Notes under the pieces: generated by a model
Databases searched by the model: none
What the model was told of the DNA's origin: nothing
Seen by the model: the letters and a program-made list of their open reading frames with translations, nothing else
Translations under genes and position numbers: made by a program
From: a bacterium 1XD42-54
GTDB lineage: Bacteria; Bacillota; Clostridia; Lachnospirales; Lachnospiraceae
Length of the DNA stretch: 64,000 bases
Direction of reading: 5' to 3'
Assembly (NCBI GenBank): GCA_003612585.1
Contig: RAZH01000001.1
Span: 496,001 to 560,000, forward strand
In this document: positions 30,230-53,090 of the stretch, piece after piece
How positions within the stretch are numbered: position 1 is the first letter of the stretch
Layout: each line of letters starts with the position of its first letter

Positions 30230-31264
30230 CTATTTTATAATTGCCTCAAATCCCGCCGCTTTCAATTCCTTCACCAGCTTCTCCGCGTTTTCCCGACTGC
30301 TGAAGCTTCCTGCCTGCACAAGGAACTGGCGGCAATCCTGCTGTACTGGATTTGTTTTATACCCAAAATACAGATGTCCCCAACGGTTATCCCTGGCATC
30401 CTTGCCAAGATACTCATATTGCTTCAGTAAGTCCGCGCATTTCTGTCTGTCTATGTTTCCTGTGCCGTCAGAATATTTTGTAAAACTGCGAAACTGCAAA
30501 ATCTGAGCTTCCGGAAAGCGCCTTTTTTCTTTGCAAAATACATCGTGCACCGCCCTGCACGCTTCCTCTGTGGTTTCCTGCCTGCCATAAGCTGCATAAT
30601 TGCGCTGCATTACCTCCGTAACCGTCTGCCCAAATTGTCCAGACTTCCACATATCGTAAATACACTGTGCTACGCCAAGAAGCGCATCATAAGAATGAAT
30701 CACCCCTGCCTCCCCGTATACCACTTTGCTGATTTCTTCAATACTGCTGTCGCTGACCACAATTCCCCGCACCTCTGAAGCCTCTGCCCCAATCAGAGCC
30801 TGGAAGAGGTTCCAGTCCTTTTTTGCCCGAATCTGCGACGGACAATTCTTAGCGCATACGTCATAATGCATTACCACATGGTCCGTACGGATTCCAAGCT
30901 CCCGCATAAGCTGCCGCGTGAGCGCAGCAGTATTCTGAAATGCTTTTTCATAGTCATATCCGGCATTTACACACATCTCAATACCAATACTGTTCCGGTT
31001 ATTCACAGTGCCAAACAATTTCCCTCCATAATCCACACCTACATGCCAGGCTCCGCGGCTGTGAGGCATTGCCTGGTATACGCTGCTGCTATCCACGTAA
31101 TAATGCGCGGACATTCCCTTAAAATTCCCATCATGCTGTGCCTGGGCATGAGCCTTTGCATCTGCCGTTTTATTAAAATTATCTGTATTGTGAATCACAA
31201 TATACTTTGGATTATTATCCACATAGCTGTTCTGATTTGATATAAAATCTTTATTGATCTGCAT
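30230..31264 (-). CDS. Phage-type endolysin: N-acetylmuramoyl-L-alanine amidase with hydrolase-like and SPOR domains
   Basis: This 344-aa three-part lysin starts at 31264 (AGAGGAGCAGAC upstream); a longer open frame is only the shadow of the holin gene. Part 1 (15-160) is an Amidase_2 domain with zinc ligands His25 (VIHNTD), His133 (VMHYDV) and Cys141 (KNCP). Part 2 (about 172-290) begins EISKVVYGEAG and resembles SleB-type cell-wall hydrolases with Glu185 as candidate catalytic residue. Part 3 (about 300-344) is a SPOR-like repeat (FLVQAGSFSSRENAEKLVKEL) that would bind denuded glycan strands. It cleaves host peptidoglycan for release of particles. It follows the holin-type genes directly. 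Confidence 0.85.
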   Translation of the reverse strand: MQINKDFISNQNSYVDNNPKYIVIHNTDNFNKTADAKAHAQAQHDGNFKGMSAHYYVDSSSVYQAMPHSRGAWHVGVDYGGKLFGTVNNRNSIGIEMCVNAGYDYEKAFQNTAALTRQLMRELGIRTDHVVMHYDVCAKNCPSQIRAKKDWNLFQALIGAEASEVRGIVVSDSSIEEISKVVYGEAGVIHSYDALLGVAQCIYDMWKSGQFGQTVTEVMQRNYAAYGRQETTEEACRAVHDVFCKEKRRFPEAQILQFRSFTKYSDGTGNIDRQKCADLLKQYEYLGKDARDNRWGHLYFGYKTNPVQQDCRQFLVQAGSFSSRENAEKLVKELKAAGFEAIIK

Positions 31265-31320
31265 GTCTGCTCCTCTCCGCTGCATATTCGCAGCACAAAA
31301 AGAGAGCGGTTTCCCGCCCT

Positions 31321-31518
31321 CTATTCTTCCAGCTCCGGCAGTCCGGCCACTGATGTCAGCAGTGACAGAATTCCTGCCAGCACTGCTGTAGACGCCACCA
31401 TCCTCGCATCCACCTGACCGAGGACCGTCGCTGACCCGATCGCTGCCACGGCTGCCTGCGCCACGGTTCTTGCTGCCCGTATTCCCGCAGCCTGTCCCCA
31501 TCTTTTCCAGTCTCTCAT
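31321..31518 (-). CDS. Holin (phage r1t type)
   Basis: The 65-aa protein has two hydrophobic segments (about 17-33 and 38-58) and the family pattern AGIRAARTVAQAAVAAIG ... AVLAGILSLLTSVAGLPEL typical of r1t-type holins. It forms membrane holes letting the downstream endolysin reach the wall. It sits between a second small membrane protein and the endolysin gene. Confidence 0.85.
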   Translation of the reverse strand: MRDWKRWGQAAGIRAARTVAQAAVAAIGSATVLGQVDARMVASTAVLAGILSLLTSVAGLPELEE

Positions 31519-31522
31519 TTTC

Positions 31523-31891
31523 TCACGCCTCCTTCAAAGGTAACCGTTTCACCCGCTCGTACAGCTCTGTGCCTGTCCCATTACCGCCAAGCGCATGATA
31601 TCCATTATACAGGTATTCCATATTTCGCATTTCTTCGTCTGTAATCCGGCCATTGTGTATATGGTACCGACACCCCTGGTACAGCCTGTCGTGAAGCAGG
31701 GCGAGCACGCCTTCCTTGAGTGCTTCCTGTTCCGCCCGGTCAGCCGCTTCCTCCCTCTGGCGCTCCTGTAATTTTTTTGCCACCAGCCGGAAACCGGCTC
31801 CGACGACTGCACACAGCAGCCCGAAGCCGGCCTCCAGCCAGTATTTCATAATAAACTCTGCCACTGGTTTGCCCTTTCTGCCAATCCCCAT
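31523..31891 (-). CDS. Small phage membrane protein next to holin
   Basis: This protein has up to 122 aa. One membrane helix (about 15-35) is followed by a charged coiled-coil stretch (KKLQERQREEAADRAEQEAL) and a conserved C-terminal part (YHALGGNGTGTELYERV). Similar proteins lie beside holins in clostridial siphophages and may be accessory lysis proteins, but no function is established. The start is uncertain: ATG 31891 and ATG 31849 both lack a strong ribosome site. Confidence 0.65.
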   Translation of the reverse strand: MGIGRKGKPVAEFIMKYWLEAGFGLLCAVVGAGFRLVAKKLQERQREEAADRAEQEALKEGVLALLHDRLYQGCRYHIHNGRITDEEMRNMEYLYNGYHALGGNGTGTELYERVKRLPLKEA

Positions 31892-31931
31892 AAAAATTTG
31901 ATTTTTCTTATTTCACGTAAAATCTTACTGC

Positions 31932-34900
31932 TTATACCCTGATTTTTAACTGTTCCAGCTCTTCCCCCTTTTTCTCTTTTGCTTCTTTGAGCCTTGCAAT
32001 TTCATATACAGCAGCATCCAGCTTTTTCTGCATCTCTTCTTCCCTGGATAATATTGTACTGACTCTTATTTCCACATCAGCTTCCAATGCATCTATGCGA
32101 TTTATCGCTTTTGTAATCATATATTTATTCAGCGGAACCCACTCCAGATAATTTACATGATATACGTTCGTATCATGTATTACCTCAACCTCATCTTTTA
32201 CTGCCTGAGATACACCATACAGATTACTGTCAGGTGAAAGACCGTATTTCAATAAGGCTGCCTCTACTTCCTGCGCTATAAATCCATAATGAACCTCTGC
32301 ATCATCCAGAATATACCTGAAAGCTGATACGTTTACATCCATATACATTTTCTCATATGCTTCTGTAATCTCTGAAAAATCCTTTTTTAAGCGCCAGTCC
32401 GATCCTGACGTCGTGGCAAAATATGTGCTTGTATTATGCAGCCATACACGACTGCTTGTTGTAAATAACCTCAGGGGCGTACTTGCATTTCCAACTCCGA
32501 CGCAATTCTCTGTGCCATTTAAATATGGACGTATCACCCAATGGTTGGTTGTTTGGCAACGTAATCCATAGTTCGTTGGTACGTTAATATTTCCTGTCAT
32601 ATTTCCTCCGCTCAATGGCAGTCTTGCATTGATTGCATTTACCATATCCCGTACGTTTGCATAGGCCATTGTGCTTCCATTCATATAGCGGAAATTAATA
32701 TTGTTATTTTCATTGTAAATATATGGCGTTGCGCCTATCGGGCCGAGGAAAAAGCCGTTATTTGCAGCTACATATACGGTACTTAACCCATTGCTGGTAC
32801 AGGTCACGCCATTTACCATCAGGCTTGCTTCTGCGTTCTCCCAAATCCGACTCGTATAATCTTTTGTCGAATTGTTAAAATGAAAGTCGATAAAAGGATA
32901 TTGTGCACTTAATTCAATAGTTCCGGTATATATTTTGTATGCTTCAAAGCTGCTGCTGTGTTTAAGATAACCTGTGCCTACATCCCATTCCGTATTCCAG
33001 GTTATCCCATTTCCTGTCAACGATTGATTATACCCATACATACCTACTTTATCGCCAATGCCTCCGATATTCCACACATGGCCGGATGCGGTATTGATTC
33101 GCATCATCGGGTAATATTTACCCTCAAGTTGTTTCGTAGAGCTATAAATACAGTTTGTTGCTGTTTTTCCATTTATCCATAATCCTCCAATCGTTGAAAT
33201 TTCCAGCCCTCTTTTTACTACTATAGAATTTGCAGTCAACAGTCCGCTCTCTATTTCAACATCGTTTATATCCAGCACTCCTGGACTTTTTTCCTGAATT
33301 TGACTAGAATACAGATCCAATTGTGAATAATTTGTATTCCGGAATTTGATACATGGAATAGATGGCGCGGAAATGTTAATATTCCCTTTCGTAGTAAGTC
33401 CCCTTTCTAAATGCATACTGCTGAAACAAGCGAATCTATCACTATGAACTTCTCCGCTGTCATCTATATAAAATGGAAAAGTTGTAACGCCATCTTTGGT
33501 TTCCTTTATACCAACGACTGCATGCGAATATTCGTCTGCAATCACACCGTCTTCTACTCTTGTTATAGATATCACAAAGGAAAAATCCACATCTACGTAC
33601 ATGCTCTCGGCATTAAATACCAATATCATCATCTGGTATGGTGCAGAACTTGCAGGTGTATTCAGAATAGTGCTCATCTTAACCGGCCATCCCTGCTTGT
33701 TATCTTCCAGTTCTTTAAGATCAGTTGTCCCTGTATTGGGCGAAGGAACGACATCCGTATCCCATTCCGTCTGAAATGTATCCTGATGACGCCAGGCAAC
33801 ATAAGCCTGTCCATCATTTTCCTTGCCCTCCCCCTGATAGTCTGTGTATACGGTGATTGTATATTTGCCCGGTTCTATGTTTGGAACGCCAACCCGCACG
33901 CGCCCGTGTCCGTCTTTTGTCGGTGTAATATAAATAGTATCATCCAACACATCTGCTGTACAATTTACAGGAGTTACCAACATATCCCCAAGCAGGGCAG
34001 CGCCTGGTGGTTGCAAAATAACAGTTCTCGTCCACGTTTTCTCCAGATGTCTCTCGTCGGCATAAAGACTTTTTAATCCAATGTTCCATCCGCCTATTTT
34101 ACCTCTCGTTGCATTAATTTTTACACCTGAAATGCTTCCGGTTGCTGTAATCTCTTTTGAAAAAAGATCACGTGTGTTAATCTTACCGGCTGTAATGCTT
34201 CCTGCAGCTATATTTTCACCGGTAATTGTATTTGCTGCAATCCTGTCTCCTGTAATACTTCCTGCAAGAATGTGATTACCTGTGATTGTATTTCCTGCGA
34301 TCCTGTCCCCTGTAATACTTCCTGCAACAATATCTGTCCCATTCAGATACTTCTGATATTTCTCGTTTTCAAGCTCCGTCATCGTTAGGCCGCTGCTCGC
34401 CACATTAATCTGATAGACAATTGAGTCTTCGCCGGTCACCATCAGGCGGTCTACTGATAACGTTCCCGCAGTTATTACATCCGCATTAATACGCACGCCA
34501 TTTAGCTGACCCGTTACATAACCATCTACAACGGTCATATCCGTCAACACGCCAGCCCTTACGAGCATCTCACCAACAGAAGCAATCTCCACATTGGCAA
34601 AATCAATACTGGCATAATTTGCTTCCAGGTATTCTGTAGTGACAGTTCCGGCGTTTATGTTATCTATCCGGGCATTGGCTGCAGCAATCTCCTGTGCAGT
34701 CAATGTTTTAAAATCAGCATAGTCGCCCCGAATAGAATGCACCGCTTCATCTATCACATTCAAATTTCCGATCGTAGCGTATTTAAGGTCTGCCTCGTCT
34801 GCTTTTAAATAGTTTGTCTTAATTTGCCCTATTGACAGACCTATTTCTCCCAATTCTCCCTGCATTGTAAAAATACTGCTATTAATTTCGGTTACAGTAT

Positions 34901-35990
34901 TGCTGCCAGCTACTCCCTGTTCAAAATGTAAAATATCGGAAACATTAATTTTCCCCGTATAGCGTCCGTCTCCCGCCACTGTATAATTAATAATTTCCGC
35001 TGCAGCCTGATATTTTTGCTGAAGCTCTTCAAACGTCAAAACTGTATTTGCAATCTCACACGTATCAAGATCCGGAGCATCCGGATAATGGGTCAGCTTT
35101 TTAATTCGCTGACATTCCATAATTCCTGTTTCCCGGTCAACCAATTTTATTGTATCTCCCAGTGCATACGCAAACTCCGCATATTCCGGTCTCTGCGCCG
35201 CCAGATTTCGAACTTCTACCTGATAAGAAATCTCAGGTTTAGACAAATCTTCAAGCTTCATCTGAGCGTCTTCCTTTAAAGCCTCAGGATCTGTATAAGA
35301 CTCATCCTTCCACAGATAGGTCAAAATTTTATTGGAATACTGAAAATTGTCCAGATAATTTTTCCCATCATTCACTGATTCGATCGTAAGCCCATTCTGT
35401 CCAACCGGTATAATCCGCGTATAATAATCATAGCTGTCGCTTTTTCTTTGAATCTTCTTTAAGTTCAATCCTTTCAGAAAATAAACGCCCCGGTCTTCTC
35501 CTCGTTTTCTAAAAAAAGATACTTTCTTATTCAGAGTATCAAATAGTGGTTCACATAAAAACGCTGTACAGAGATTTTGTATTACATCCAGAGACGACAC
35601 CTGCACCATACCGGCGTTTCGCCTTTTTGTAACGTCACAGTAACCAATCGTCCATCCTGTTCCTGCAAGTACTGTCCTTGCCGCTTCTTCAATCGTAGTA
35701 TCTGTTACTGAGAAGGTCTGCCACATTTCCTGCTTTAAATCTTCCAGATTTAAAATTGCAACAATCTGTGAAAAAGTCCCCGTTGCTGACGGTACTTCTT
35801 TGATTACATACTCATCGCCCTCCGTCTGTACATACATCTCATTTTCCAGACGATGATGATTCGCCAGATACGTAAAAGAGAGCGTCTTATCACCAGTGGC
35901 AACATCGCTCTCTATCCTGCAATCCTTATATTTCACAAGATGCCCTATGGCCTTGTGATTTTTATCAAAAAGTTTTAACATAGGGCACAC
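31932..35990 (-). CDS. Tail-associated/receptor-binding protein with C-terminal S74 chaperone domain
   Basis: This 1352-aa tail-tip protein has an N-terminal region (about 1-340) with the layout of siphophage Tal / prophage endopeptidase tail proteins. A long shaft follows with tandem ITGxxI/IAAGSIT repeats (around 555-620) and beta-rich receptor-binding candidates. From about residue 1195 comes an intramolecular chaperone (Peptidase_S74) with the autocleavage motif GSDWRLKKDF, ending in a coiled coil. The chaperone helps trimerisation and is then released. It is the only fibre-like protein in the cluster and so the likely determinant of target range. It follows DUF1617 and Dit. Confidence 0.85.
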   Translation of the reverse strand: MCPMLKLFDKNHKAIGHLVKYKDCRIESDVATGDKTLSFTYLANHHRLENEMYVQTEGDEYVIKEVPSATGTFSQIVAILNLEDLKQEMWQTFSVTDTTIEEAARTVLAGTGWTIGYCDVTKRRNAGMVQVSSLDVIQNLCTAFLCEPLFDTLNKKVSFFRKRGEDRGVYFLKGLNLKKIQRKSDSYDYYTRIIPVGQNGLTIESVNDGKNYLDNFQYSNKILTYLWKDESYTDPEALKEDAQMKLEDLSKPEISYQVEVRNLAAQRPEYAEFAYALGDTIKLVDRETGIMECQRIKKLTHYPDAPDLDTCEIANTVLTFEELQQKYQAAAEIINYTVAGDGRYTGKINVSDILHFEQGVAGSNTVTEINSSIFTMQGELGEIGLSIGQIKTNYLKADEADLKYATIGNLNVIDEAVHSIRGDYADFKTLTAQEIAAANARIDNINAGTVTTEYLEANYASIDFANVEIASVGEMLVRAGVLTDMTVVDGYVTGQLNGVRINADVITAGTLSVDRLMVTGEDSIVYQINVASSGLTMTELENEKYQKYLNGTDIVAGSITGDRIAGNTITGNHILAGSITGDRIAANTITGENIAAGSITAGKINTRDLFSKEITATGSISGVKINATRGKIGGWNIGLKSLYADERHLEKTWTRTVILQPPGAALLGDMLVTPVNCTADVLDDTIYITPTKDGHGRVRVGVPNIEPGKYTITVYTDYQGEGKENDGQAYVAWRHQDTFQTEWDTDVVPSPNTGTTDLKELEDNKQGWPVKMSTILNTPASSAPYQMMILVFNAESMYVDVDFSFVISITRVEDGVIADEYSHAVVGIKETKDGVTTFPFYIDDSGEVHSDRFACFSSMHLERGLTTKGNINISAPSIPCIKFRNTNYSQLDLYSSQIQEKSPGVLDINDVEIESGLLTANSIVVKRGLEISTIGGLWINGKTATNCIYSSTKQLEGKYYPMMRINTASGHVWNIGGIGDKVGMYGYNQSLTGNGITWNTEWDVGTGYLKHSSSFEAYKIYTGTIELSAQYPFIDFHFNNSTKDYTSRIWENAEASLMVNGVTCTSNGLSTVYVAANNGFFLGPIGATPYIYNENNNINFRYMNGSTMAYANVRDMVNAINARLPLSGGNMTGNINVPTNYGLRCQTTNHWVIRPYLNGTENCVGVGNASTPLRLFTTSSRVWLHNTSTYFATTSGSDWRLKKDFSEITEAYEKMYMDVNVSAFRYILDDAEVHYGFIAQEVEAALLKYGLSPDSNLYGVSQAVKDEVEVIHDTNVYHVNYLEWVPLNKYMITKAINRIDALEADVEIRVSTILSREEEMQKKLDAAVYEIARLKEAKEKKGEELEQLKIRV

Positions 35991-35995
35991 CTCCT

Positions 35996-36418
35996 CTATT
36001 CTTCTAACATGAATGACAACGCAAGCAGCTCTGCCACACTGAGCAGATCATAACGTTCTATCTTTTCACATTGTTCAATTTCTTCCATCCCTGATTTTCT
36101 GATATCGATCTCCACTTCTGTTTCCAGAAGCTGTGTATATTCCTCAGAGAATGCCTTTTTATTCTCCTCCGACATTTTATATTCCTGCATTTTCTGACCG
36201 TTTATAACGCTCTCCGCCATAAGTACATTTCCGCTTTCATCCTTTTCTGCATACATTTCACAGAGTTTCTTTCTCTCCTTTTCCACTCTTTCGATCTCCT
36301 CCTGCATTCTTTCCAGGTTGCAGGAAATTGCGAATCCAAGTCTTGACGGAAACACCTTTTTTCCAAATCCGGCCAACTCTGTAAAGTGTCTGTTTACTTC
36401 TTTTAACGTCATTCTCAT
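35996..36418 (-). CDS. DUF1617 phage protein
   Basis: This 140-aa alpha-helical protein matches DUF1617: KLCEMYAEKDESGNV, ENKKAFSEEYTQLLETEVEIDI. The family occurs next to Dit/Tal in Firmicutes siphophages; function unknown, probably tail assembly. It lies 5 bases from the Tal gene and 36 from Dit. Confidence 0.75.
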   Translation of the reverse strand: MRMTLKEVNRHFTELAGFGKKVFPSRLGFAISCNLERMQEEIERVEKERKKLCEMYAEKDESGNVLMAESVINGQKMQEYKMSEENKKAFSEEYTQLLETEVEIDIRKSGMEEIEQCEKIERYDLLSVAELLALSFMLEE

Positions 36419-36454: not shown

Positions 36455-37210
36455 CTACATAAAACGTGGACGCATTCTCACTGTAAGAATCATTTGATTA
36501 TTATTTATGGTTATCCTGTTTTCACCGGGAAGCAGTGTCGGACGTTCCCAGATATCAAGCTCTGCTTTCAGCTCTCCTTCCTGAGTAAACAACCCGCTTT
36601 CCCCGTCCAACACAACTGTTTTTCCGGTTTTCAATTCACGAATTGTTACGGGAAGCGGCTGTAGTGTTCCCAGATCCCGGCAAATCCCCGTCAGGGTCAC
36701 AGACGCAGCTCCGATTTTAGGTGTAATTTCTACAATTGCAGGTGTCAGAAGATTTCCTGTATTATTAATAACCATGCTTGTTTCTCCGTCTGCCAAAACA
36801 GAAAATGGATCCCCATTTTCCAAAACAGCAAATTCATAGCAGCCAAATTCCAGCGTTAATTTTGCCATACGGTTAAAATTAACCGAAGAAATTTTCATTG
36901 GATTTTCTTCCAGGCTGTAATTTTCCAGTACTCCATAAAATCTGTGTTCAAAATCATCAAGCTTCAATTCTGCCGGTTCTACCAGGCGTGACAAAATATC
37001 ACTGCATCTTGCAAGTATTTCCTGTCTCCCACCTTCTCTTTTGATCATCAATATTACTTTTATCTTTTTGACACCAAGTTCATTTTTCAAAAATAGCGGT
37101 GACAAACTGCCGCCGCTCCAGTCACTGCTATTTGAAATTGCATGATAGCCGGGAGTTACATTCCACTGTCTTGCTCCGGCATTTAAAATATCCCAGTTAT
37201 TAATCAGCAT
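36455..37210 (-). CDS. Distal tail protein (Dit)
   Basis: This 251-aa protein sits in the canonical position after the tape measure. Sequence features are those of the siphophage Dit/SPP1 gp19.1 group: LKLDDFEHRFYGVLENYSLEE in the N-terminal ring domain and a C-terminal galectin-like half with LLPGENRITI. It forms the hexameric hub joining the tube end to Tal. The start at 37210 is set by AGGAGAGGAGAAAC; the frame is open further up but overlaps the tape-measure end. Confidence 0.8.
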   Translation of the reverse strand: MLINNWDILNAGARQWNVTPGYHAISNSSDWSGGSLSPLFLKNELGVKKIKVILMIKREGGRQEILARCSDILSRLVEPAELKLDDFEHRFYGVLENYSLEENPMKISSVNFNRMAKLTLEFGCYEFAVLENGDPFSVLADGETSMVINNTGNLLTPAIVEITPKIGAASVTLTGICRDLGTLQPLPVTIRELKTGKTVVLDGESGLFTQEGELKAELDIWERPTLLPGENRITINNNQMILTVRMRPRFM

Positions 37211-43800: not shown

Positions 43801-43843
43801 CTTCTTTCACTAATCCCATATCTGCCAGAATCCTTTACAAGCC
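43801..43843. repeat. 43-base near-repeat, copy A
   Basis: 35 of 41 aligned positions match 52964-53006 in the same orientation (with two gaps). It lies in the untranslated stretch upstream of the lipoprotein gene. On the minus strand both copies can encode AD(M/V)GLVKE. Confidence 0.6.
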
Positions 43844-45137: not shown

Positions 45138-47015
45138 CTACTTTACCGTCACCCTACACTTTACAGTAACCTTTCCTGACTTCACTGTAATGGTACTCTT
45201 TCCCCTCTTTAAAGCCTTAATCTTCCCATTTTTATCTACTTCCGCAACTTTTTTATTCGAAGAGGTATACGTAATGGCTTCATCGCTGTTCGACGGATAC
45301 AATTTTGTTTTCAATCTATACGATTTGCCCTTTTTCAGAGACAACTTTGTTTTTACACCCGTAATTTTTGTTGTTTTTGTTTTCGGGACTGCAATCGTTA
45401 CGGTATATTTTGCTGTTCCCGATTTCACAGTAATTTTTGCCGTTCCGGCCTTTTTTGCCCGTACCACGCCTTTGGAAGACACAGTTGCTACTGCCTTATC
45501 GGACGATGTATACGTAATCTTCTCCTGTGATGTAATCGGATAACACACAGGCTGTAACGTCATTCTGCTGCCCTTTTTTAGCGTATATTTTTTCTTAAGA
45601 CCCGTAAGTTTCGTAGTCTCCACATCATCTTTGCGTACATAGACCGTTATCTTCTTTTTGAAACCGCTCTTCAGGGTAATCGTTAAAGTAGCCTTTCCTG
45701 TTTTCTTGCCTGCTGTTATTGTTCCTTTGCTACTCACCTTAAAAATATTCTCGTTGCTTGACCTCCAGGATGCTACCTTATCCCCCTTCGCCATTTCCAG
45801 AATCTTCAATGCACTTGATTTTTGCTTCACCTTCAGCACAATCTTATCTGCATTCAGCCTCAGTATTGGTGTTGCCACTTCCCCTGTTCTGGTCTCCTCA
45901 AACCCACAATCCTGACACTTTCGCATCTCGACAGAAGCACTGTCAACAGTCGGCTCCTGTATGATTTTCCACTTTCCAAATTTATGGCTGACTATCTTTG
46001 GTATTTCCTCCTCGCTGTCCACTTTTACCATATTACAAACTCTGCAATGTATACTTTTTACACCTGTTTCTGTCATAGTCGCTGGCTGATCTACTGTGTA
46101 TTCCGTATTCCATATATGATTTCCCGTTTTAAATAACATACGCTCATCGCTTATAACCATTCCGCATACATTACAGTAACTTCTTGCCGTTGTTCCAGCA
46201 CTTATACAGGTTGGTTTCTTTCCTGGTTTTGTCACTACAGCATGCTCCGTACAAATTGTACTTTTCCCAATATCCCAGTATCGAACACAACGTATCCCAG
46301 AAGAACCCAGAAGTTGTTCATAATCACTCACCTTAATTCCACCAGAAGGATATGGACCATAGTTCGCAGCAACATATACTATCTCACCATTTCCTATATA
46401 AATTCCTGCAAAAGCAGCTGAAAGCTCTACCCCAGAATCCCCTTCATTAATAGGTTCTAACAAAGGATATCCTCCATTAAAAATAATATCCCCTGGCTGA
46501 CAAAATCTCGGATTAATCTTAATCCCCTGTGTGTAACCCTGTGCAATAAGCTCGTCTGATGGCCCTTTACACTGATCCGCTGGAGACCGCGGCAGTTTCA
46601 TTCCAAAGTTTCCAAACACCAGCTGAATAAATCCGCCAACATCCGTTCCTTCTATTAGACTGTTGCCATTAGGTTTATACGGCTTTCCCACAAACTGCAA
46701 CGCATAATCCACAATAGCCTCGTTCAGCGGTTTTTCCTGTATATCCACCGCCACCAGTTCCGCCAGAGTTTCCATCACAGAAACCTCTTCCACCGCAATC
46801 TCCCCCGGCAAATGCTCCTCTTCAAAAGTTTCTGACTCATCCTCTTCCGTTTCCATATACAGCTCTGACATATCAGCCATTTCTTCCAAAATAATCTCGT
46901 CTTCCACTGGCCCATATAAAAATTCATCTTCCACGGCCCGCACGCAGGCTGCCTCTCCTGTTAATAAACTCCCAATCAGTACAAATGACAGAAAACTAAG
47001 ATACCTTTTTTTCAT
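45138..47015 (-). CDS. Secreted NlpC/P60-like pseudoenzyme with bacterial Ig-like (Big_2) repeats
   Basis: This 625-aa exported protein has a signal peptide (1-27) and an acidic stretch (30-85). An NlpC/P60-shaped domain (about 98-235) and Cys-containing segments (CxxC near 255-385) follow, then three Big_2-type domains rich in Lys (about 395-625). The domain keeps the fold landmarks (FVGKPYKPNG, QPGDIIF, GIYIGNGEIVYVA). But the catalytic Cys of DCSGF is Val126 (DVGGF) and the catalytic His is replaced by Phe202 (AFAGIYIG). Peptidase activity is therefore unlikely; binding to wall peptides or adhesion is more plausible. Own promoter at 47045-47074. Confidence 0.8.
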   Translation of the reverse strand: MKKRYLSFLSFVLIGSLLTGEAACVRAVEDEFLYGPVEDEIILEEMADMSELYMETEEDESETFEEEHLPGEIAVEEVSVMETLAELVAVDIQEKPLNEAIVDYALQFVGKPYKPNGNSLIEGTDVGGFIQLVFGNFGMKLPRSPADQCKGPSDELIAQGYTQGIKINPRFCQPGDIIFNGGYPLLEPINEGDSGVELSAAFAGIYIGNGEIVYVAANYGPYPSGGIKVSDYEQLLGSSGIRCVRYWDIGKSTICTEHAVVTKPGKKPTCISAGTTARSYCNVCGMVISDERMLFKTGNHIWNTEYTVDQPATMTETGVKSIHCRVCNMVKVDSEEEIPKIVSHKFGKWKIIQEPTVDSASVEMRKCQDCGFEETRTGEVATPILRLNADKIVLKVKQKSSALKILEMAKGDKVASWRSSNENIFKVSSKGTITAGKKTGKATLTITLKSGFKKKITVYVRKDDVETTKLTGLKKKYTLKKGSRMTLQPVCYPITSQEKITYTSSDKAVATVSSKGVVRAKKAGTAKITVKSGTAKYTVTIAVPKTKTTKITGVKTKLSLKKGKSYRLKTKLYPSNSDEAITYTSSNKKVAEVDKNGKIKALKRGKSTITVKSGKVTVKCRVTVK

Positions 47016-47116: not shown

Positions 47117-47725
47117 CTATCCAACCTTCCTTCTCACTCTCCGAATCCCCTTTCGCAGCATATCCGAAACAGCCTGCTGCGTTACGCCCAACTCTTCTGC
47201 AATCTCATCCTCCTGCATCTGCTCCATATAATATTTCTTCATCACCATCCGTTGTTTTTCCGTCGAAAAACTTAAAAGCTTCTCCACTTCCTCCTGACAG
47301 ATAAGTTCATGCAGCATCATATCCTCCTGTGCCATTTCGCTCCAGTCCTCTGCTACTGCACTATACGATATACATTTTCTCTCATTACACCAGTCCTCAT
47401 TTTTTGCGATCCGGTCTTCCCCCTCCAGCATTACACGAAAATACCAGTTTTTATTTTCAAAAAAATCATCCTCAAAATGAAAATGATCTTTCTGATTAAA
47501 CTCATACACATAAGCACAGCAGGCATGAAGCGGAAACACCGTGCTGTGTCTTCCGACCCGATACGCAACAAATCCATTCTGGTAAACATCAATCCTGCTC
47601 TGCGCATCTACCATTTCCTTTGCCACAATCGGACTTCCCGATTCCCGGAGTGCCCGGTAAGTCGGAACCCGGTCCGTGAAAGCTGCGTTCTCAACGGCAT
47701 GTTTCAGTTCTCTCAATGTCAGCAT
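47117..47725 (-). CDS. Sigma-70-region-4-like regulator with a distinct N-terminal domain (copy 1)
   Basis: This is a 202-aa protein. Residues about 148-200 (STEKQRMVMKKYY, then EIAEELGVTQQAVSDMLRKG) form a sigma-factor region 4 helix-turn-helix. Residues 1-105 form a separate domain (VYQNGFVAYRVGRHSTVFPL) not seen in ordinary sigma factors, and no region 2 is evident. Such proteins could work with another RNA-polymerase factor or as plain activators. Its paralog is at 49772-50386. Both are preceded by a strong terminator and a GC-rich hairpin beside the ribosome site. It is a candidate activator of the tail or secreted-protein genes. Confidence 0.75.
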   Translation of the reverse strand: MLTLRELKHAVENAAFTDRVPTYRALRESGSPIVAKEMVDAQSRIDVYQNGFVAYRVGRHSTVFPLHACCAYVYEFNQKDHFHFEDDFFENKNWYFRVMLEGEDRIAKNEDWCNERKCISYSAVAEDWSEMAQEDMMLHELICQEEVEKLLSFSTEKQRMVMKKYYMEQMQEDEIAEELGVTQQAVSDMLRKGIRRVRRKVG

Positions 47726-47735
47726 ATTACCCTTT

Positions 47736-47859: not shown

Positions 47860-47890
47860 AGACAGTAACTTTCCACCTATTCCCCTGAAC

Positions 47891-48006: not shown

Positions 48007-48279
48007 TTATTCTTTTATTATATTGTCTGTCTCGTTTTCTACTTCATACCCTGATTCTTCACCTTGTCTCTCCAAATCCAGAGAGACCGTTGTAGCAATC
48101 TCGATTGCATCCCGGTTCGTAACGAACGACTCCAGCAGATCAGAAACCGGGATCATATAGCAGCTGTCGATGCCGTGCTGCTTTAACAGAATAACCAGTT
48201 TATTCTGATATGTACCAAGGCGAAACAATAACTTATTGAGCCTGTCGTTTCCCCTCACTTCCCCAATGACAACGCTCAT
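48007..48279 (-). CDS. Small protein of the immA operon, unknown
   Basis: The 90-aa protein has an ATG overlapping the immA stop by 4 bases (ATGA), so it is translationally coupled. It is acidic at the C-terminus (ERQGEESGYEVENETDNI) and has no recognisable domain; the segment IPVSDLLESFVTNRDAIEIA could be helical. It is probably a partner or modulator of the ImmR/ImmA switch. Confidence 0.6.
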   Translation of the reverse strand: MSVVIGEVRGNDRLNKLLFRLGTYQNKLVILLKQHGIDSCYMIPVSDLLESFVTNRDAIEIATTVSLDLERQGEESGYEVENETDNIIKE

Positions 48280-49073
48280 TTCTTCCCTGTCTTCCATTTG
48301 CCATTATCCCTCCTATCATTCCTCAAAATTTCCTTTTCCAGAAGACCAAACCTGACAAGCCGGAGCTCCACTGCCTTTCCGGGCACCTGGAATATCTGTT
48401 TCATCTCATCTACAACTGCAGTTACCCTAGTTCTACCATGTTTTCGTAAAAGAATATCTCCGTATATGCTTTGTCTGCGCATGACATCATAAAATGCCAG
48501 AAGGAACGTATCCTTCGACATCAGTAACGCTGCTGCCAGATTGTTGGCCTGCCATTCCTTCCATACTTCATCGCTCCATTTTCGGTGTTCCTTCTTTACG
48601 GCAAGCTCTGCCCCCGCAGCCCGGCAGGCAATTACAGGACATTTCGCCTGCATGCAAAATTCATAAGGCCGGTGGTCCCAGGCATGATAGGTACAATGGC
48701 AAATCCAATGGCTTGCCTCATGCGCCTGGGTAAAGCGTTTGATTCCGGTATTTTCCGGCTTATCCAGCGACTGCTCCAGCAATACCGTCCCTTCCGGAAT
48801 TTCAATCTGGTATGGTTCATCATTCTTCCCGATCCCTGTATACACAGTATCTGAAAATACAATCAGCCCCCATATCTGCCCGTCTTTTGATAACCGTTCC
48901 GATTTCAGATCAAGATACAGACATTCCTTCATGAAATGTTCTATATCAAGAGGCTGAGGCTTTCTCAATACCTGCGGCTGGTACTCAGACAGTACCCACT
49001 GTGCAATGTCTTCATAATCTGCTGTCTCCAAAATAAACAGCCCGTTTTTTGTCATCGGATAATCCAGATGCAT
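48276..49073 (-). CDS. ImmA/IrrE-family metallopeptidase
   Basis: This 265-aa protein has the zinc peptidase motif HEASH in FTQAHEASHWICH and downstream WQANNLAAALLMS, matching the second-half EANxFAAxLLMP pattern of ImmA/IrrE proteins. In ICEBs1 and related phages ImmA cleaves the ImmR repressor to induce the element. It is thus the likely de-repressor of this island. The start at 49073 follows AAAGGAGTG. The partner repressor gene lies just upstream, separated by a long hairpin. Confidence 0.85.
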   Translation of the reverse strand: MHLDYPMTKNGLFILETADYEDIAQWVLSEYQPQVLRKPQPLDIEHFMKECLYLDLKSERLSKDGQIWGLIVFSDTVYTGIGKNDEPYQIEIPEGTVLLEQSLDKPENTGIKRFTQAHEASHWICHCTYHAWDHRPYEFCMQAKCPVIACRAAGAELAVKKEHRKWSDEVWKEWQANNLAAALLMSKDTFLLAFYDVMRRQSIYGDILLRKHGRTRVTAVVDEMKQIFQVPGKAVELRLVRFGLLEKEILRNDRRDNGKWKTGKK

Positions 49074-49128
49074 ATCATTCACTCCTTTTCTCTGCGTATC
49101 TAATTCCTGTACAACAACAGAAAAAACA

Positions 49129-49188
49129 GCGCCTTTACGCATCATCAAAAAAACCTGTCCCGTTTATTTTTGATGGCCGTAAAGGCGC
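49129..49188 (-). terminator. Long inverted repeat between immR and immA
   Basis: Arms of 23 bases (49129-49151 and 49166-49188) match except for small interruptions: GCGCCTTTACG.ATCATCAAAAA and its complement. On the minus strand it ends in TGTTTTTTC, as a terminator would. Its position inside an immR-immA pair suggests partial termination or attenuation that keeps ImmA low. Confidence 0.6.
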
Positions 49189-49214: not shown

Positions 49215-49655
49215 TTACTCGTTTTCTTTTAATAATTGAAGCTGTTCTTCCGCAATTCGGTCAAACTCTTTCATAAAAGTAAGCCACAGTTCGTCGCACT
49301 TGTCTTCCGGTATTCTGGCCTCTTTAAATTTTCGAAGAGCCTCCCTGGCCAGAGGCTGTCCCCCCAGAATCGGATTGATATCTTCATATGTGTACCCCCT
49401 GGTAGCTGCAGCCAGATCCTCAAAAATTTCCTTCTCCTCTTCTGATATTCCAAATGCCTCAATAAACTTATCAAGGTATTTCCTCGGAGCATATCGGTTT
49501 CCTTTTTCAATATCACTTAAATAGGCTGCTGTCATTCCCAGTTCTTCCGCAAATCCCCGCACACTTTTGCCCAGCGTCTCTCTTTTCTTCCGAAGATACT
49601 GACCGAACGTGTGCTCATTGATATCTTTTGACATCTTTAATTCTTTTAAATCCAC
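49215..49655 (-). CDS. ImmR-like XRE-family repressor
   Basis: The 146-aa protein has an N-terminal HTH (residues 16-75: FGQYLRKKRETLGKSVRGFA, then MTAAYLSDIEKGNRYAPRKY) and a helical C-terminus. The start is GTG at 49655 with GGAAAG upstream. Paired with a following ImmA-type peptidase it fits the repressor/anti-repressor switch of Gram-positive mobile elements. A palindrome with 9-bp arms lies about 70 bases upstream as probable operator. Confidence 0.8.
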   Translation of the reverse strand: MDLKELKMSKDINEHTFGQYLRKKRETLGKSVRGFAEELGMTAAYLSDIEKGNRYAPRKYLDKFIEAFGISEEEKEIFEDLAAATRGYTYEDINPILGGQPLAREALRKFKEARIPEDKCDELWLTFMKEFDRIAEEQLQLLKENE

Positions 49656-49771: not shown

Positions 49772-50386
49772 TCAACACATGTTATTTTTCTTCCGAACTC
49801 TCCGGATTGCTTTTCGAAGCGTATCAGAAACGGCCTGCTGCGTAATCCCCAGCTCTTTTGCAATTTCATCCTCCTGTAACTGATCCATATAATATTTCTT
49901 CATTACCATTCTCTGCCGTTCTGTCATAAGCTGCCAGAGTTCCTCCAGTTCTTCCCGAATGACGAAAGCGTTTAATACCGTATCTTCCTGTGCCAGTTCA
50001 CTCCAGTCTTCTGCAATTGCACTGTAAGAAATACTTTTTCTTCCATTGTACCAGTCTTCGTTTTTGGCTATCCGGTCTTCTCCTTCCAAAAACAAACGAA
50101 TATACCAGTTTTCATTTTCAAAGAAATCACTTTTCACATTGAAACTGAGATTTTGATGAAACTCATATCTGTATCCGCCGCAGGAATGAAGCGGAAATAC
50201 CGTACTCCGCTTTCTGGCTTTGTACACCACATATCCATTCTGATAAACTATAAGTTCTGACTGCACATCAACAACCTTCTTTACCACAACCGGAATTCCT
50301 GATTCCCGAAGTACCTTATACGTAGGTACCCGCTCCACTGAGGAAGCTTCTGTAACGTTGTTTTTCAGCTCTTTTAATGTCAGCAT
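49772..50386 (-). CDS. Sigma-70-region-4-like regulator with a distinct N-terminal domain (copy 2)
   Basis: The 204-aa paralog of 47117-47725 has the same two-part layout and more than half of residues identical by eye, including VYQNGYVVYKARKRSTVFPLHSC and the HTH EIAKELGITQQAVSDTLRKA. It lies between the tail-tube genes and immR. A terminator separates it from the tube gene upstream, and its leader holds a GTGTGC-TTC-GCACAC hairpin (50454-50468) plus the GC hairpin near the ribosome site. Two related regulators at the two edges of the immR/immA block suggest division of labour or a duplication of the switch. Confidence 0.75.
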   Translation of the reverse strand: MLTLKELKNNVTEASSVERVPTYKVLRESGIPVVVKKVVDVQSELIVYQNGYVVYKARKRSTVFPLHSCGGYRYEFHQNLSFNVKSDFFENENWYIRLFLEGEDRIAKNEDWYNGRKSISYSAIAEDWSELAQEDTVLNAFVIREELEELWQLMTERQRMVMKKYYMDQLQEDEIAKELGITQQAVSDTLRKAIRRVRKKNNMC

Positions 50387-50532: not shown

Positions 50533-50583
50533 AGCAAAAAACAGCTCCGGCACAGCCCGTTTTTTTTAACGGGCGCCGGAACT
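50533..50583 (-). terminator. Terminator after the second tail-tube gene
   Basis: Minus-strand hairpin GTTCCGGC..GCCCGTT / AACGGGC...GCCGGAGC followed by TGTTTTTTGC, 85 bases beyond the tube stop. It ends the tail-tube operon and resembles the element at 47812-47859. Confidence 0.75.
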
Positions 50584-50667
50584 CTTATTCATTTTATGCT
50601 CGCGGAACAACACTTCCCGTCAGATGCTCTTGCAGCGCAGGTCATCTGTCTGATCCTTTCCATGTAA

Positions 50668-51207
50668 TTACGCTGCCGCAATCCCTACCTTGCCGTTCAG
50701 CCACGTTTTTGCCTCCGCCAGAGTCGCAAACTCTTCCCTGAGCTTCCATGCGCCGTCCTCCGGAATCAGGATGGTTCCTTCCACAGTGGTGTGACCGAAT
50801 GTCGTGTTCTCCTGCTTTGTTGTGTTCTCGTCGTTCGGTTCGGAAAACTGTACTTTTTTATAGAACTTTGCCACATATTTGCTGCCGCTCTTTCCAATTG
50901 CACCACAGCCGACATACGGAGCCGTGTCATTTACGTTATAAATAATTTCTCCGGTCTCCTTGTCTTTTGCATGTCCAAGAAGGAACACATAAATATCATC
51001 TTCATCCTGATTCATCTCGATGGACAGTGTGCCGCCTGTAACAGAATTATCCGTTTCCAGTGCGCGGTTATCGCCATAATCCGTTACGCTTGCCTTGGTT
51101 GGTGTACCGTTAAAATTTGTCACCGGACTCAGGTACTTTCCGCCCGTGTAGGTTCCATCCTCCTGTAATAAGCCAAATACTGCATACTCAATTCCTGTTT
51201 TTGCCAT
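50668..51207 (-). CDS. Major tail tube protein, copy 2
   Basis: This 179-aa protein is almost identical to the product of 51810-52364 over its whole length (MAKTGIEYAVFGLLQEDGTY start, NGTPTKASVTDYGDNRALE, PYVGCGAIGKSGSKYVAKFY). Differences are scattered plus a changed C-terminus. It is a siphophage-type tube subunit. Its place, after the tail chaperone and before a terminator, is unusual; tube genes normally precede the chaperone. Either a mixed tube or a recent duplication is implied. Confidence 0.8.
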   Translation of the reverse strand: MAKTGIEYAVFGLLQEDGTYTGGKYLSPVTNFNGTPTKASVTDYGDNRALETDNSVTGGTLSIEMNQDEDDIYVFLLGHAKDKETGEIIYNVNDTAPYVGCGAIGKSGSKYVAKFYKKVQFSEPNDENTTKQENTTFGHTTVEGTILIPEDGAWKLREEFATLAEAKTWLNGKVGIAAA

Positions 51208-51259: not shown

Positions 51260-51813
51260 TTACGGCAGTGCTTCAATTTCAGATCCCTTTTCCTTTTTCA
51301 ATCCGTTTAATTCCAAAAACTCCCGGTATACCCGGAAAAACTTCCGCGGAGTCATCTGAAACAATTCTGACTCCCGGTACCCCAGCTTTATCTGTCCGAT
51401 ATAGATCAGGCGGGCGACGTTCAGCGGTTCGTCTGCCCGCTCTTCCGGTTTGGGTCGTCTTCCTCCTCCGGCTCCGGAAGCGAAATACCGTAAGCCCGCA
51501 GAATTGCTGCCATGACTGTATAGTAATTGTCCAGTCCGATCATTTCCCCGACTTCCGTCTCTGTCACCACGGCATACCTCGATGCTTCCCCCGGATTCTT
51601 TGCCATCCGCTGCGCTTCGTCATTCAGCAGAATTACAACCAGGTTACGCAGCGTATGCTCTGTCCCGTCTGCTTTTGCCAGATCTGCAATCACCTCATGA
51701 AGCGTCTTTCCATATCGGTCCTGAATTTCATCAATAATGTTCAGGGTAAAGAGAAAATGTCTCTCCACCCCGTCCAGAACCACCGGTATGCCGCGCGGTC
51801 TCAGATCACTCAT
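51260..51813 (-). CDS. Tail assembly chaperone (gpG; -1 frameshift product gpGT)
   Basis: The zero-frame product is 130 aa (51421-51813; FLFTLNIIDEIQDRYGKTLHE, a typical chaperone N-terminus). The slippery heptamer C-CCA-AAC at 51448-51454 allows -1 frameshifting into a second frame, PEERADEPLNVARLIYIGQI then KLGYRESELFQMTPRKFF, which ends at 51260 and matches the gpT half of Firmicutes tail chaperones. The fused product would have 184 aa. Both forms guide tube protein onto the tape measure. The start overlaps the tube copy 1 stop by 4 bases. Confidence 0.85.
51448..51454 (-). promoter_or_regulatory. Programmed -1 ribosomal frameshift site
   Basis: Minus-strand heptamer CCCAAAC in the X-XXY-YYZ arrangement relative to the zero frame, just before the zero-frame stop. 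It joins gpG to gpT. Confidence 0.85.
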
Positions 51814-52364
51814 TCGTTGCCTCCCTGTACTGCTGTAATGCCGACTTTTTTATTCAGCCAGTCTTTGGCAGCAGCCAGTGTTGCAAATTCTTCTCTCAGT
51901 TTCCATGCGCCGTCTTCCGGAATCAGGATAGTTCCCTCTACTGTGGTATGACCAAAAGTCGTATTCTCCTGCTTTGTTGTATTTTCATCATTCGGCTCAG
52001 AAAACTGTACCTTTTTGTAAAACTTCGCCACATATTTCGCGCCGCTTTTTCCAATTGCACCACAGCCGACATACGGTGCGGTATCATTCACATTGTAAAT
52101 AATCTCCCCGGATGTCTCATCCTTCGTATGCCCCAGCAGGAATACATAGATATCGACCTCATCCTGGTTCATCTCAATGGACAGCGTACCGCCCGTCACT
52201 GAATTATCGTTTTCAAGTGCACGGTTATCGCCATAATCCGTAACGCTCGCCTTGGTCGGTGTACCGTTAAAATTTGTTACCGGGCTCAGATATTTCCCGT
52301 TTTTATAAGTTCCGTCTTCCTGCAGCAGACCGAATACTGCATATTCAATTCCTGTTTTTGCCAT
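51810..52364 (-). CDS. Major tail tube protein, copy 1
   Basis: This 184-aa tail tube subunit stands in the canonical order tail terminator - tube - chaperone. The start at 52364 is chosen for GGAGGAACAGACA; the frame is open eleven codons further. The beta-rich sequence with LSPVTNFNGTPT and TTVEGTILIPEDGAWKLREE is shared with copy 2. Stacked hexameric rings of this protein form the non-contractile tube; no sheath gene is present, which makes the tail siphophage-like. Confidence 0.85.
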   Translation of the reverse strand: MAKTGIEYAVFGLLQEDGTYKNGKYLSPVTNFNGTPTKASVTDYGDNRALENDNSVTGGTLSIEMNQDEVDIYVFLLGHTKDETSGEIIYNVNDTAPYVGCGAIGKSGAKYVAKFYKKVQFSEPNDENTTKQENTTFGHTTVEGTILIPEDGAWKLREEFATLAAAKDWLNKKVGITAVQGGNE

Positions 52365-52431
52365 TGTCTGTTCCTCCATTTTTTGTTTTTCGTTCATTCT
52401 GAAACTCTGTTTCCGAAATCTGCCCCATAAA

Positions 52432-52557
52432 CTACCCAGAATGGGTGTGATTTCTATGTTGCCATCTATTTTTATACTCTCTAAACTGCCTGTCCTCCCT
52501 CCGATTTTCTCTGATTGCCTGTCGGATCGCGGCTCCGGCTTCTCTCTCTGCCCTCAA
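52432..52557 (-). CDS. Possible 41-aa protein between tail terminator and tube
   Basis: A TTG-initiated frame reads as a highly charged helix (AGAAIRQAIRENRREDRQFR). GGAGGAG lies upstream but also serves a 27-codon overlapping ATG frame. Small ORFs do occur here in siphophages, but support is weak. Confidence 0.25.
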   Translation of the reverse strand: MRAEREAGAAIRQAIRENRREDRQFREYKNRWQHRNHTHSG

Positions 52558-52599
52558 GCCTCATAGCTTCTCCTCCCCCCTTTCTGCCCTTCTTTGCGC

Positions 52600-52941
52600 C
52601 TAAACTGACTGACTGCTGCTGAAAAATACCAGATGCATTATTTTTGTATCCTGTTCAAAAGAATACAAAATACTCGTTACCGAAAAACCCGCCTCCTCCA
52701 GGGCGGAACGAATATCTTTCCTGATATTCATATAATCCTGCGTCCCTTTCGCAAACCAGTGGACCTGCCAGGAAAGCATCCACTCCTGACTCACTCCGTC
52801 CCCGTAATCCACTGGCTGTTCTTTCTCCGGAAAGTACGTGATCCACATATCCGGTTCTATCTCCAGCGGACACACGAACGGCCATATGTTTCCATCCGTA
52901 ATCTCTGAAAGCACTGCTTCCAATTTTGTACCTGTACTCAT
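52600..52941 (-). CDS. Tail terminator / tail completion protein
   Basis: This 113-aa protein directly precedes the tube gene, where siphophages encode the tail terminator (lambda gpU / SPP1 gp17 group). The short alpha-beta pattern WITYFPEKEQP ... WQVHWFAKGTQDYMNIRKDI ... ALEEAGF is compatible with it. It caps the head-proximal end of the tube and would be needed for headless tails too. Its ATG overlaps the stop of a 50-aa upstream frame. Confidence 0.65.
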   Translation of the reverse strand: MSTGTKLEAVLSEITDGNIWPFVCPLEIEPDMWITYFPEKEQPVDYGDGVSQEWMLSWQVHWFAKGTQDYMNIRKDIRSALEEAGFSVTSILYSFEQDTKIMHLVFFSSSQSV

Positions 52942-53090
52942 TTCATTCCCTCCGTCCTTTCGTCTTCCTTCACTAACCCCACATCTGCGTAAGTCCTGTA
53001 CAAGCTTGCAGAAAATTTTTCTAAGAAAACTTTGATTAAATCAGCGTTCCACAAATAAAAAAGCAAAAATACCCCAGGCAAACTCTGCAT
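52938..53090 (-). pseudogene. 50-aa upstream frame, possible remnant of a head-tail connector gene
   Basis: This ATG-initiated frame ends ADVGLVKEDERTEGMK and overlaps the tail-terminator start by ATGA, as the preceding connector gene does in intact siphophages. The N-terminal half (FLLFYLWNADLIKVF) looks like translated terminator sequence. I read it as the fossil 3' end of a deleted connector gene at the edge of the island, now perhaps only providing translational coupling. Confidence 0.35.
52964..53006. repeat. 43-base near-repeat, copy B
   Basis: Matches 43801-43843 at 35 of 41 aligned positions. It lies inside the 50-aa frame before the tail terminator gene. Confidence 0.6.

Follow-up and report, generated by a model that had tools for sequence, protein, structure and literature searches.

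A headless siphophage-type tail and lysis locus beside pyrG in a gut Lachnospiraceae bacterium, a candidate F-type tailocin

The F-pyocin of Pseudomonas aeruginosa is encoded by a tail-only locus derived from a siphophage, as is the locus described here (the island); it is Lambda-like, belongs to a Gram-negative host and differs from the island in its regulation. F-type tailocins have seldom been described, the F-pyocin, named as the prototype, and the monocin being exceptions among mostly R-type particles (PMC10811719). For the Listeria monocin (ftb cluster, an F-type tailocin), a CI-like repressor is described together with MpaR, a protease of the DUF955 family, a pair which the authors likened to ImmR/ImmA (PMC6872733, PMC7076858). 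Such a pair is common to monocin and island, and the first-pass annotation, which had considered ImmR/ImmA in a tail-only locus to be new, was mistaken on this point, the arrangement being known in kind from the monocin description (PMC6872733). In contrast to the monocin, which was taken from descriptions and not from sequence, the island has its regulators inside the tail cluster on the same strand, belongs to another host family and contains region-4-only regulators, a duplicated tube, secreted-looking cargo and a tube of phrog_88. Rhizoviticin of Allorhizobium vitis, a further F-type tailocin, resembles the island in being a headless flexible-tail locus with lysis genes; it is described as chimeric, with a regulator portion joined to a tail portion, to which the island can be likened, and a sigma-factor gene is reported to be required for its activity (PMC10811719). 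Rhizoviticin is described to retain replication genes, an integrase remnant and a LexA-family repressor (PMC10811719), whereas the island regulators partly resemble conjugative-element genes. The island's tail gene order is also found in the phage record G075 (IMG/VR, 51 kb) and in contig C27 of Parablautia sp. Marseille-Q6255 (G017), both of which, unlike the island, have genes for terminase, portal, protease and capsid ahead of those for the tail. The newer points are the region-4-only regulators, a 40-bp element ahead of both tail operons and an exchangeable cassette from tape measure to Tal.

Tail and lysis genes in the pyrG-carB interval

A 64-kb stretch of a gut bacterium genome was analysed (the window), within which all coordinates are numbered. 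The pyrG-carB interval contains an intact tail and lysis locus of siphophage type, on the minus strand throughout. The tail and lysis genes and the flanks are as follows, with pyrG and carB named according to the first-pass annotation:

53352..54977, plus strand: pyrG, host flank (45 of 47 genomes of the genus have homologues)
52600..52941, minus strand: tail terminator, 113 aa (phrog_78, 1.5e-09)
51810..52397, minus strand: major tail tube protein 1 (phrog_88, 5.9e-30; PF04630 below cut-off)
51421..51813, minus strand: tail assembly chaperone carrying a -1 frameshift signal (phrog_2115)
50668..51207, minus strand: major tail tube protein 2, almost a copy of tube 1 (phrog_88, 4.8e-28)
37233..42365, minus strand: tape measure protein (TMP), 1710 aa (phrog_1686, 2.5e-40)
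36455..37210, minus strand: distal tail protein Dit (phrog_33, 2.4e-14; start picked by eye)
35996..36418, minus strand: small tail-region protein (phrog_1401, 3.7e-16, function not assigned in PHROG)
31932..35990, minus strand: Tal (tail-associated protein), 1352 aa, with S74 domain (PF06605 Prophage_tail, 7e-46; PF13884, 1.3e-8)
31523..31891, minus strand: small protein upstream of the holin (phrog_4105, no function assigned in PHROG)
31321..31518, minus strand: holin (phrog_443, 3.7e-11)
30230..31264, minus strand: endolysin, amidase 2 with SPOR (PF01510 and SPOR, on the longer frame; phrog_3088)
28857..30095, minus strand: secreted protein between lysin and carB (paralogue of 43869-45092, 51% identical)
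25532..28774, minus strand: carB, host flank (98.5% match in the sister species G070)

Pfam and PHROG scans and the ORFs bore out the earlier gene list in that tail terminator, two tubes, chaperone, tape measure, Dit, Tal with S74 domain and endolysin are all present, unbroken and on the minus strand. A non-contractile tail module as in F-type tailocins (terminator, tube, chaperone, tape measure, Dit, Tal) is thus accompanied by its own holin and endolysin. Three entries had to be narrowed: the ORF called DUF1617 exists and matches its PHROG, but is without Pfam match and owes its name to the first-pass annotation; one of the supposed holins (31321-31518) is supported, while 31523-31891 matches only PHROGs without function; and the island does lie beside pyrG, but is separated from carB by the secreted protein. 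Tube 2 is 92% identical to tube 1, and the best named phage matches of the tube are from Lactobacillus delbrueckii phages (~32% identity). An in-phase slippery heptamer, CCCAAAC (51454-51448), lies in the chaperone gene together with an open -1 extension (frame translated), and the frameshift signal is intact in both IMG/VR haplotypes described below.

Four head HMMs (terminase, portal, head protease, capsid), whose training ORFs came from some of the loci surveyed below, gave no match in the 64 kb at E 1e-5, and PF04860 (portal), PF04586 (protease) and phrog_9 (terminase) were unmatched in the whole genome, which is 99.98% complete. As in F-type tailocins, capsid, portal and terminase are therefore absent from the locus (window; three families genome-wide). 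The claim that head, integrase and replication genes are missing holds for the head genes in the window; integrase and replication genes were not found among the 20 minus-strand island genes, to which the Pfam and PHROG scans were confined. Several PHROGs labelled head or packaging match Tal (phrog_1067, 12312, 4311, 32822) or the NlpC/Big_2 protein (phrog_215), which we take to reflect tail-tip or Ig domains common to the labelled families and these proteins. A full prophage in disguise was rejected, as three head families are absent genome-wide and four head HMMs were negative in the window.

The survey of related tail loci comprised 89 tube-bearing loci, not dereplicated (L041 and L140 are one place, as are L026 and L137); head-labelled PHROG matches on tail-tip proteins (island, G243) were not counted as head genes. 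Head genes lie upstream in 61 of the 63 loci having at least 6 kb upstream, the exceptions being L193 and L050. The 26 loci with less than 6 kb upstream were left out; 14 of these have head genes and 12, including L021 and L022 (the island itself), have none in view. L050 (G034) was rejected as a headless locus and treated as decayed, since only a fragment of the tube is present, close to the end of a contig. A separate locus of headless appearance, L193/L215, occurs in G243, which belongs to another Lachnospiraceae genus; it encodes terminator, tube, chaperone, a tape measure of 1227 aa, Dit, Tal, fibres and lysin, and between Dit and Tal a protein that matches PHROGs labelled head protein; head genes in L215-L217 were checked by tblastn only.

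Regulators and secreted proteins between the two tail operons

Between tube 2 and the tape measure lie regulators and secreted-looking proteins, listed here with the two copies of the 40-bp element and a hairpin:

52964..53003, minus strand: first copy of the 40-bp element, directly ahead of the gene for the tail terminator
50537..50583, minus strand: hairpin of terminator type that follows tube 2 and has a U-run (z-score -4.55 on folding of 50495-50600)
49772..50386, minus strand: sig1, regulator combining a sigma region 4 HTH with a beta-rich N-terminus (Sigma70_r4)
49215..49655, minus strand: ImmR-like HTH repressor (HTH_31, HTH_3)
48276..49148, minus strand: ImmA-like M78 metalloprotease (Peptidase_M78, 1.7e-4, just under the curated cut-off)
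48007..48297, minus strand: small conserved protein s96, 96 aa (no family match; in both IMG/VR haplotypes)
47117..47725, minus strand: sig2, paralogue of sig1, ~65% identical (Sigma70_r4)
45138..47015, minus strand: NlpC/P60 protein with Big_2 domains, variable cargo (Pfam; secreted by eye)
43869..45092, minus strand: cargo protein with weak peptidoglycan-binding domain (PG_binding_1 just under cut-off; secreted by eye)
43801..43840, minus strand: second copy of the 40-bp element (copy 2), ahead of the operon of the tape measure
42487..43716, minus strand: putative lipoprotein, by eye (no family match)

The term sigma-like factors, used earlier for sig1 and sig2, proved too generous. Their family matches are confined to region 4; an AlphaFold2 model of sig1 (mean pLDDT 79.8) has a beta-rich N-terminus, and region 2 was not seen in it. 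On these grounds canonical sigma-70 factors (regions 2 and 4) were ruled out. The best Foldseek hits of the model are sigma factors (best E 1.9e-3), with nothing at E 0.001 or better. The order HTH repressor gene followed by M78 protease gene, as in ImmR/ImmA pairs, is present; the best homologue of the protease is named ImmA/IrrE, and its HEASH motif (HExxH) was read by eye. A simple scan listed a promoter-like consensus match at 49775-49747 with the ImmR-like gene.

Relatives of sig1 were sampled as the best 8 of 18 places outside the source genome, all in the same genus. One homologue (L222) adjoins RepA_N and conjugation genes, and another (L224) adjoins ParA, ParB and RepA_N; by eye, the surroundings of L223 and L225 resemble these. 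Loci L224-L229 encode a giant secreted-looking protein one or two genes from the sig gene, and it is of SpaA/TED type in both loci tested (L224, L226). From their sequences, sig1 and sig2 are taken to be regulators with region 4 only, some of whose sampled relatives in the genus are genes of conjugative elements, and part of the 8-kb block may therefore be cargo and not tail control. It is a real possibility, which we put somewhat short of even, that the whole block from sig1 through ImmR, ImmA, s96, sig2 and NlpC to the lipoprotein is conjugative-element cargo, which controls its own secreted proteins and is unrelated to tail expression. The neighbourhoods above point in this direction, as do the secreted-looking proteins downstream of sig2, which differ between the window and haplotype G072 (the NlpC/P60 gene is missing from the corresponding place in G072), and the sister species G070, which retains NlpC without tails. 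Against it stand the order from sig1 to sig2, constant in three haplotypes, the control of the monocin by an ImmR/ImmA-like pair as described (PMC6872733), and the position of the block, with one of the two sole copies of the 40-bp element to either side.

The 40-bp pattern was derived from these two copies, so that its two matches in the window arise by construction. With its 20-bp core at up to 3 mismatches, the genome contains only the two copies; the backward control pattern matched once, so that a chance match at this leniency is not unusual. At up to 2 mismatches, the core was absent from the scanned loci outside the island (L001-L020 left out). Copy 2 is retained in G072 with one core mismatch, ahead of a different tape measure. 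One frame of the element reads ADVGLVKE / ADMGLVKE, and the element may therefore be left over from the duplication of a coding segment; its role as a plain promoter or operator is putative.

The hairpin after tube 2 was missed by the simple terminator scan. For the second leader, RNA folding did not reach significance (43650-43790, z -1.35; 47790-47900, z -0.12). Simple scans gave 45 promoter-like sites vs. 30.6 in shuffles and 15 terminator-like sites vs. 13.8. A LexA-type box GAACNNNNGTTC was not found in the window, and SOS control via such a box was rejected; control through ImmA is possible. The hairpin inside the cluster, the missing LexA box and the head-labelled protein of G243 were counted against the tailocin reading.

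Haplotypes and relatives of the locus

The main rival to a tailocin, which we regard as unlikely, is a well-preserved defective prophage that has lost head, integration and replication genes, is now neutral, and looks intact because it is young and refreshed by recombination with live phages. Its tail gene order, identical to that of phages with heads from this genus and family, fits such an origin, whereas a head relic was absent from the window as judged by HMMs.

The first-pass annotation had proposed comparisons of the carB-pyrG interval and of dN/dS, and had named head genes in the same locus of relatives or frameshifted tail genes as signs of decay. The same headless locus was found beside pyrG in two IMG/VR records, G071 and G072, and head genes were seen in none of these haplotypes. 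The headless form is known from these three sequences only, a small number that favours the rival. Broken or frameshifted tail genes, which a decaying prophage should show, are absent from the window, from G071 and from G072 up to its end within Tal, beyond which its lysis genes would lie. The window likewise lacks truncated tail genes, but the sister species G070 does have scars: nearly the entire locus is gone, and the FtsH-carB stretch is ~90% identical. While this loss favours a defective prophage, the scars imply that the locus most simply predates the split from the sister species, which speaks against it.

G071 is near-identical to the window from NlpC to Tal. It differs at 128 positions in 47.5-55 kb, at 7 in 32-47.5 kb and at 39 in 30.1-32 kb, and its first 7 kb have just 2 differences from G072; by these patterns, G071 is a mosaic (recombinant). 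In G072, tape measure, Dit and Tal have 59-69% aa identity to those of the window (parts compared by codon), and the tape measure, over its first half, has 36%. Judged from this comparison, the cassette from tape measure to Tal is exchangeable and has been swapped as a whole block.

For the island genes, ~62 of 143 differences between window and G071 are non-synonymous (hand sum), tested against an assumed 77%. Outside ImmA the differences are mostly synonymous, which argues against a neutral prophage. ImmA, with 21 synonymous and 28 non-synonymous differences between the headless haplotypes, is unlike the other genes and appears relaxed from these counts; small indels have changed its C-terminal end in G071 and G072 (290 aa vs. 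277), in favour of the rival. The rival is also favoured by the Tal of the head-bearing phage record G075, which shares 85% DNA identity and 76-77% aa identity with that of the island. Exchange with live phages is therefore recent, and the low dN/dS could be partly inherited.

It is highly improbable that the tails serve another use than killing, e.g. one common to a capsid-encoding element (helper/satellite), as the Tal similarity to G075, a record sharing its metagenome number with G072, might suggest, since the three head families are unmatched genome-wide and the locus has its own lysis genes.

Proposed function and meaning

With tail and lysis genes intact and head genes apparently absent, headless, competitor-killing tails are probable. 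Most likely the locus, consisting of tail without head, is maintained and its products are tailocin-like bacteriocin particles of the F type (flexible and non-contractile), a reading to which we assign a probability of roughly 0.62. The tailocin-like interpretation of the first-pass annotation is in part supported and ranks ahead of the others (no head in any haplotype, intact tail genes, mostly synonymous differences, cassette swap), with the loss of the locus in the sister species counting against it. At rest, the ImmR-like repressor would keep the locus off. Under stress, the M78 protease may cleave ImmR, by family like MpaR in the Listeria monocin, and two operons would turn on together, i.e. 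terminator-tube 1-chaperone-tube 2 and tape measure-Dit-Tal-holin-amidase, possibly through the common 40-bp element and sig1/sig2. Headless tails would then assemble, holin and amidase would lyse the producer, and Tal would direct the tail to related cells; swapping of the block from tape measure to Tal may change the target range. More doubtful is a three-part weapon, in which a siphophage tail used as bacteriocin is combined with an ImmR/ImmA switch and region-4-only regulators derived from a conjugative element and acting via the 40-bp element, and with a strain-swapped cassette that retargets killing and alters tail length.

A Lachnospiraceae tailocin was not found in titles and abstract openings of the best-ranked matches in the open-licence literature. 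If the tailocin reading is true, the island would be a natural system for altering target range by exchange of the cassette from tape measure to Tal and, together with the separate G243 locus, would suggest that tail-based killing also occurs in this anaerobic gut family.

Gene content of the island and survey of related tail loci

The island between pyrG and carB is most likely an F-type tailocin-like locus (probability roughly 0.6). In the genome carrying it (completeness 99.98%), every island gene is encoded on the minus strand (52941 to 30230). The tail terminator, tube 1, a frameshifted chaperone and tube 2 are followed by the regulator gene sig1, an ImmR-like and an ImmA-like gene, a 96-aa protein, the sig1 paralogue sig2, an NlpC/Big_2 protein, a PG-binding-like protein and a probable lipoprotein. 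The last part comprises the tape measure, Dit, a phrog_1401 protein, Tal, a small protein, holin and amidase; a paralogue of the PG-binding-like protein lies between amidase and carB. The -1 frameshift site of the chaperone, CCCAAAC, is in phase with an open extension after it, and both are retained in two IMG/VR haplotypes (G071 and G072). The tail and lysis gene set described by the first-pass annotation was a sound observation. Outside the island, a ZMP/ZTP riboswitch (59327-59430, minus strand) precedes two genes, one at 58462-59178 and a PurH-like one at 57260-58438.

Head-gene HMMs (large terminase, portal, head protease, capsid), each built from 28-35 ORFs of related phages, had no match within the 64-kb window (E 1e-5). 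Portal PF04860, protease PF04586 and the phrog_9 terminase had zero matches genome-wide. The window scan and these three families agree with the earlier statement that terminase, portal and capsid genes are absent.

For comparison, 89 tube-bearing loci from viral contigs and genomes were surveyed; a family-wide search had given a tube match in 27 of 397 genomes. Head genes were present upstream in 61 of the 63 loci with 6 kb or more of sequence before the tube, the exceptions being L050 and L193. L050 (genome G034) has a tube fragment only, near a contig end. By eye, this fragment (L050:14164-15276) sits inside an open frame whose start resembles a Rha-type regulator and which follows an XRE-like gene; the whole looks like a rearranged remnant. 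L193, continued in L215, is a compact locus of another genus of Lachnospiraceae:

L215:5889-19305 (G243, contig C83): headless-looking siphophage tail locus

It encodes a terminator, tube, chaperone, 1227-aa tape measure, Dit, Tal, two fibre proteins and an NlpC protein, with host-like ORFs on either side (by eye). PHROGs carrying a head-protein label match the protein encoded between Dit and Tal; this was taken as a tail-tip label. Another contig of this genome (C64, L195) carries head genes and a Tal related to that of the L215 locus (74-79%).

Proposed operon structure and regulators

A 40-bp element has one copy ahead of the first tail gene and another ahead of the tape-measure operon. Its position before both tail operons, together with a strong terminator-like hairpin downstream of tube 2, suggests that the regulator block is flanked by two late operons sharing one control element. 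The element is retained in G072 with one core mismatch, ahead of a different tape measure. Within 3 mismatches, its 20-bp core matched nowhere else in the genome beyond these two copies, and a backward control pattern had one match. The element could also be a duplicated coding relic, as one of its frames can be translated into a short peptide.

The 'sigma-like factors' of the first-pass annotation, sig1 and sig2, match the sigma family in region 4 only; with an N-terminus predicted to be beta-rich, they were ruled out as full sigma factors. A fold search with the regulator model gave weak matches only, to sigma factors. The leaders of sig1 and sig2 are alike, each having a terminator-like hairpin and, close to the start codon, a GC-rich stretch:

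50390-50590 (minus strand): leader of sig1
47727-47900 (minus strand): leader of sig2

This similarity suggests that leader and gene were duplicated together; of the two, just the leader of sig1 folds better than shuffled sequences.

The sig family is large (2781 homologues). Out of 18 places, neighbourhoods were read for the eight best homologues from other genomes of the genus (L222-L229). A RepA_N protein and conjugation genes were found at L222, ParA, ParB and RepA_N at L224, and L223 and L225 were similar by eye. Because of these neighbours, we infer that the island regulators derive from a conjugative element, and perhaps the secreted cargo does too. In six loci (L224-L229), a giant secreted-looking protein is encoded one or two genes away from the sig homologue and is of SpaA/TED type in both loci tested. 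L222-L229 represent a family of region-4-only regulators in Lachnospiraceae, some of them located in conjugative elements and often near such proteins.

Regulators in a tail-only locus had been considered new. The ImmR/ImmA-like pair is indeed present, but the Listeria monocin already has such a repressor-protease pair, in which the repressor is a substrate cleaved by the protease (PMC6872733). Such pairs are an already known kind of switch.

Haplotypes, recombination and loss

In G071 and G072, the island adjoins pyrG. All 24,855 bases of G071 align to the window, with 128 differing positions in 47.5-55 kb, 7 across the 15.5 kb spanning NlpC to Tal and 39 in the final 1.9 kb. Given these uneven differences and only 2 differences from G072 in its first 7 kb, G071 looks like a recombinant of the window and G072 haplotypes. 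G072, whose sequence stops within Tal, retains the part from terminator to sig2 and has a different secreted-looking protein (337 aa), tape measure (about 1908 aa, calculated from two overlapping pieces), Dit and Tal. Identity to the window is 59-69% in the codon-compared parts of the exchanged block and 36% over the first half of the tape measure. Tal of G075, a 51-kb head-bearing phage record, is 77% (protein) and 85% (DNA) identical to that of the window; therefore, parts have been exchanged between island and phages. ImmA and sig1 scans of viral contigs, whose reach is limited to close relatives, returned just the two island records, and a wider protein search gave 23 ImmA homologues (38-92% identity). 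The island is probably present in further strains, because protein cluster P0002, resembling sig2 itself, represents 16 contigs.

In the sister species G070, the FtsH-carB stretch is about 90% identical to that of the window. After it come 181 nt from the amidase 3' end, NlpC together with the sig2 end, a 41-nt match to the sig2 start, and pyrG:

L115:5379-8000 (G070): island scars between carB and pyrG (amidase 3' end, NlpC and sig2 pieces)

With these scars in place, the island would most simply predate the split from G070 and have been deleted there later. Among 20 pyrG-side stretches from same-genus genomes, the pyrG neighbour was FtsH in 10 and other genes in 7; two were too short and one was G070. 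Besides G070, no carB or tail-gene match was obtained in these stretches, and L118 and L130 had weak NlpC matches (31% and 41%). The proposed carB-pyrG comparison yielded no head genes in the G071 and G072 island haplotypes as far as these records extend, and a scarred loss in G070.

Selection and overall reading

The main rival to the tailocin-like reading is a defective prophage. Between window and G071, about 62 of 143 coding differences (hand sum) are non-synonymous, tested against an assumed neutral share of 77%. Among single genes, the amidase shows a low non-synonymous share most clearly (23 synonymous against 11 non-synonymous differences); ImmA departs from this pattern (21 and 28). 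The haplotypes also differ by small indels in the last ImmA codons (290 aa in the window against 277 aa in G072); this gene end (48276-48330, minus strand) overlaps the next gene. The low non-synonymous share is no proof that selection acts in the headless state, because parts may come from live phages.

Novelty of the locus, read as tailocin-like, is moderate, since tail-only loci with repressor-protease switches are already known. The newer points are the regulators of conjugative-element type, the shared element, the exchange from tape measure to Tal, and the headless-looking locus in another genus.
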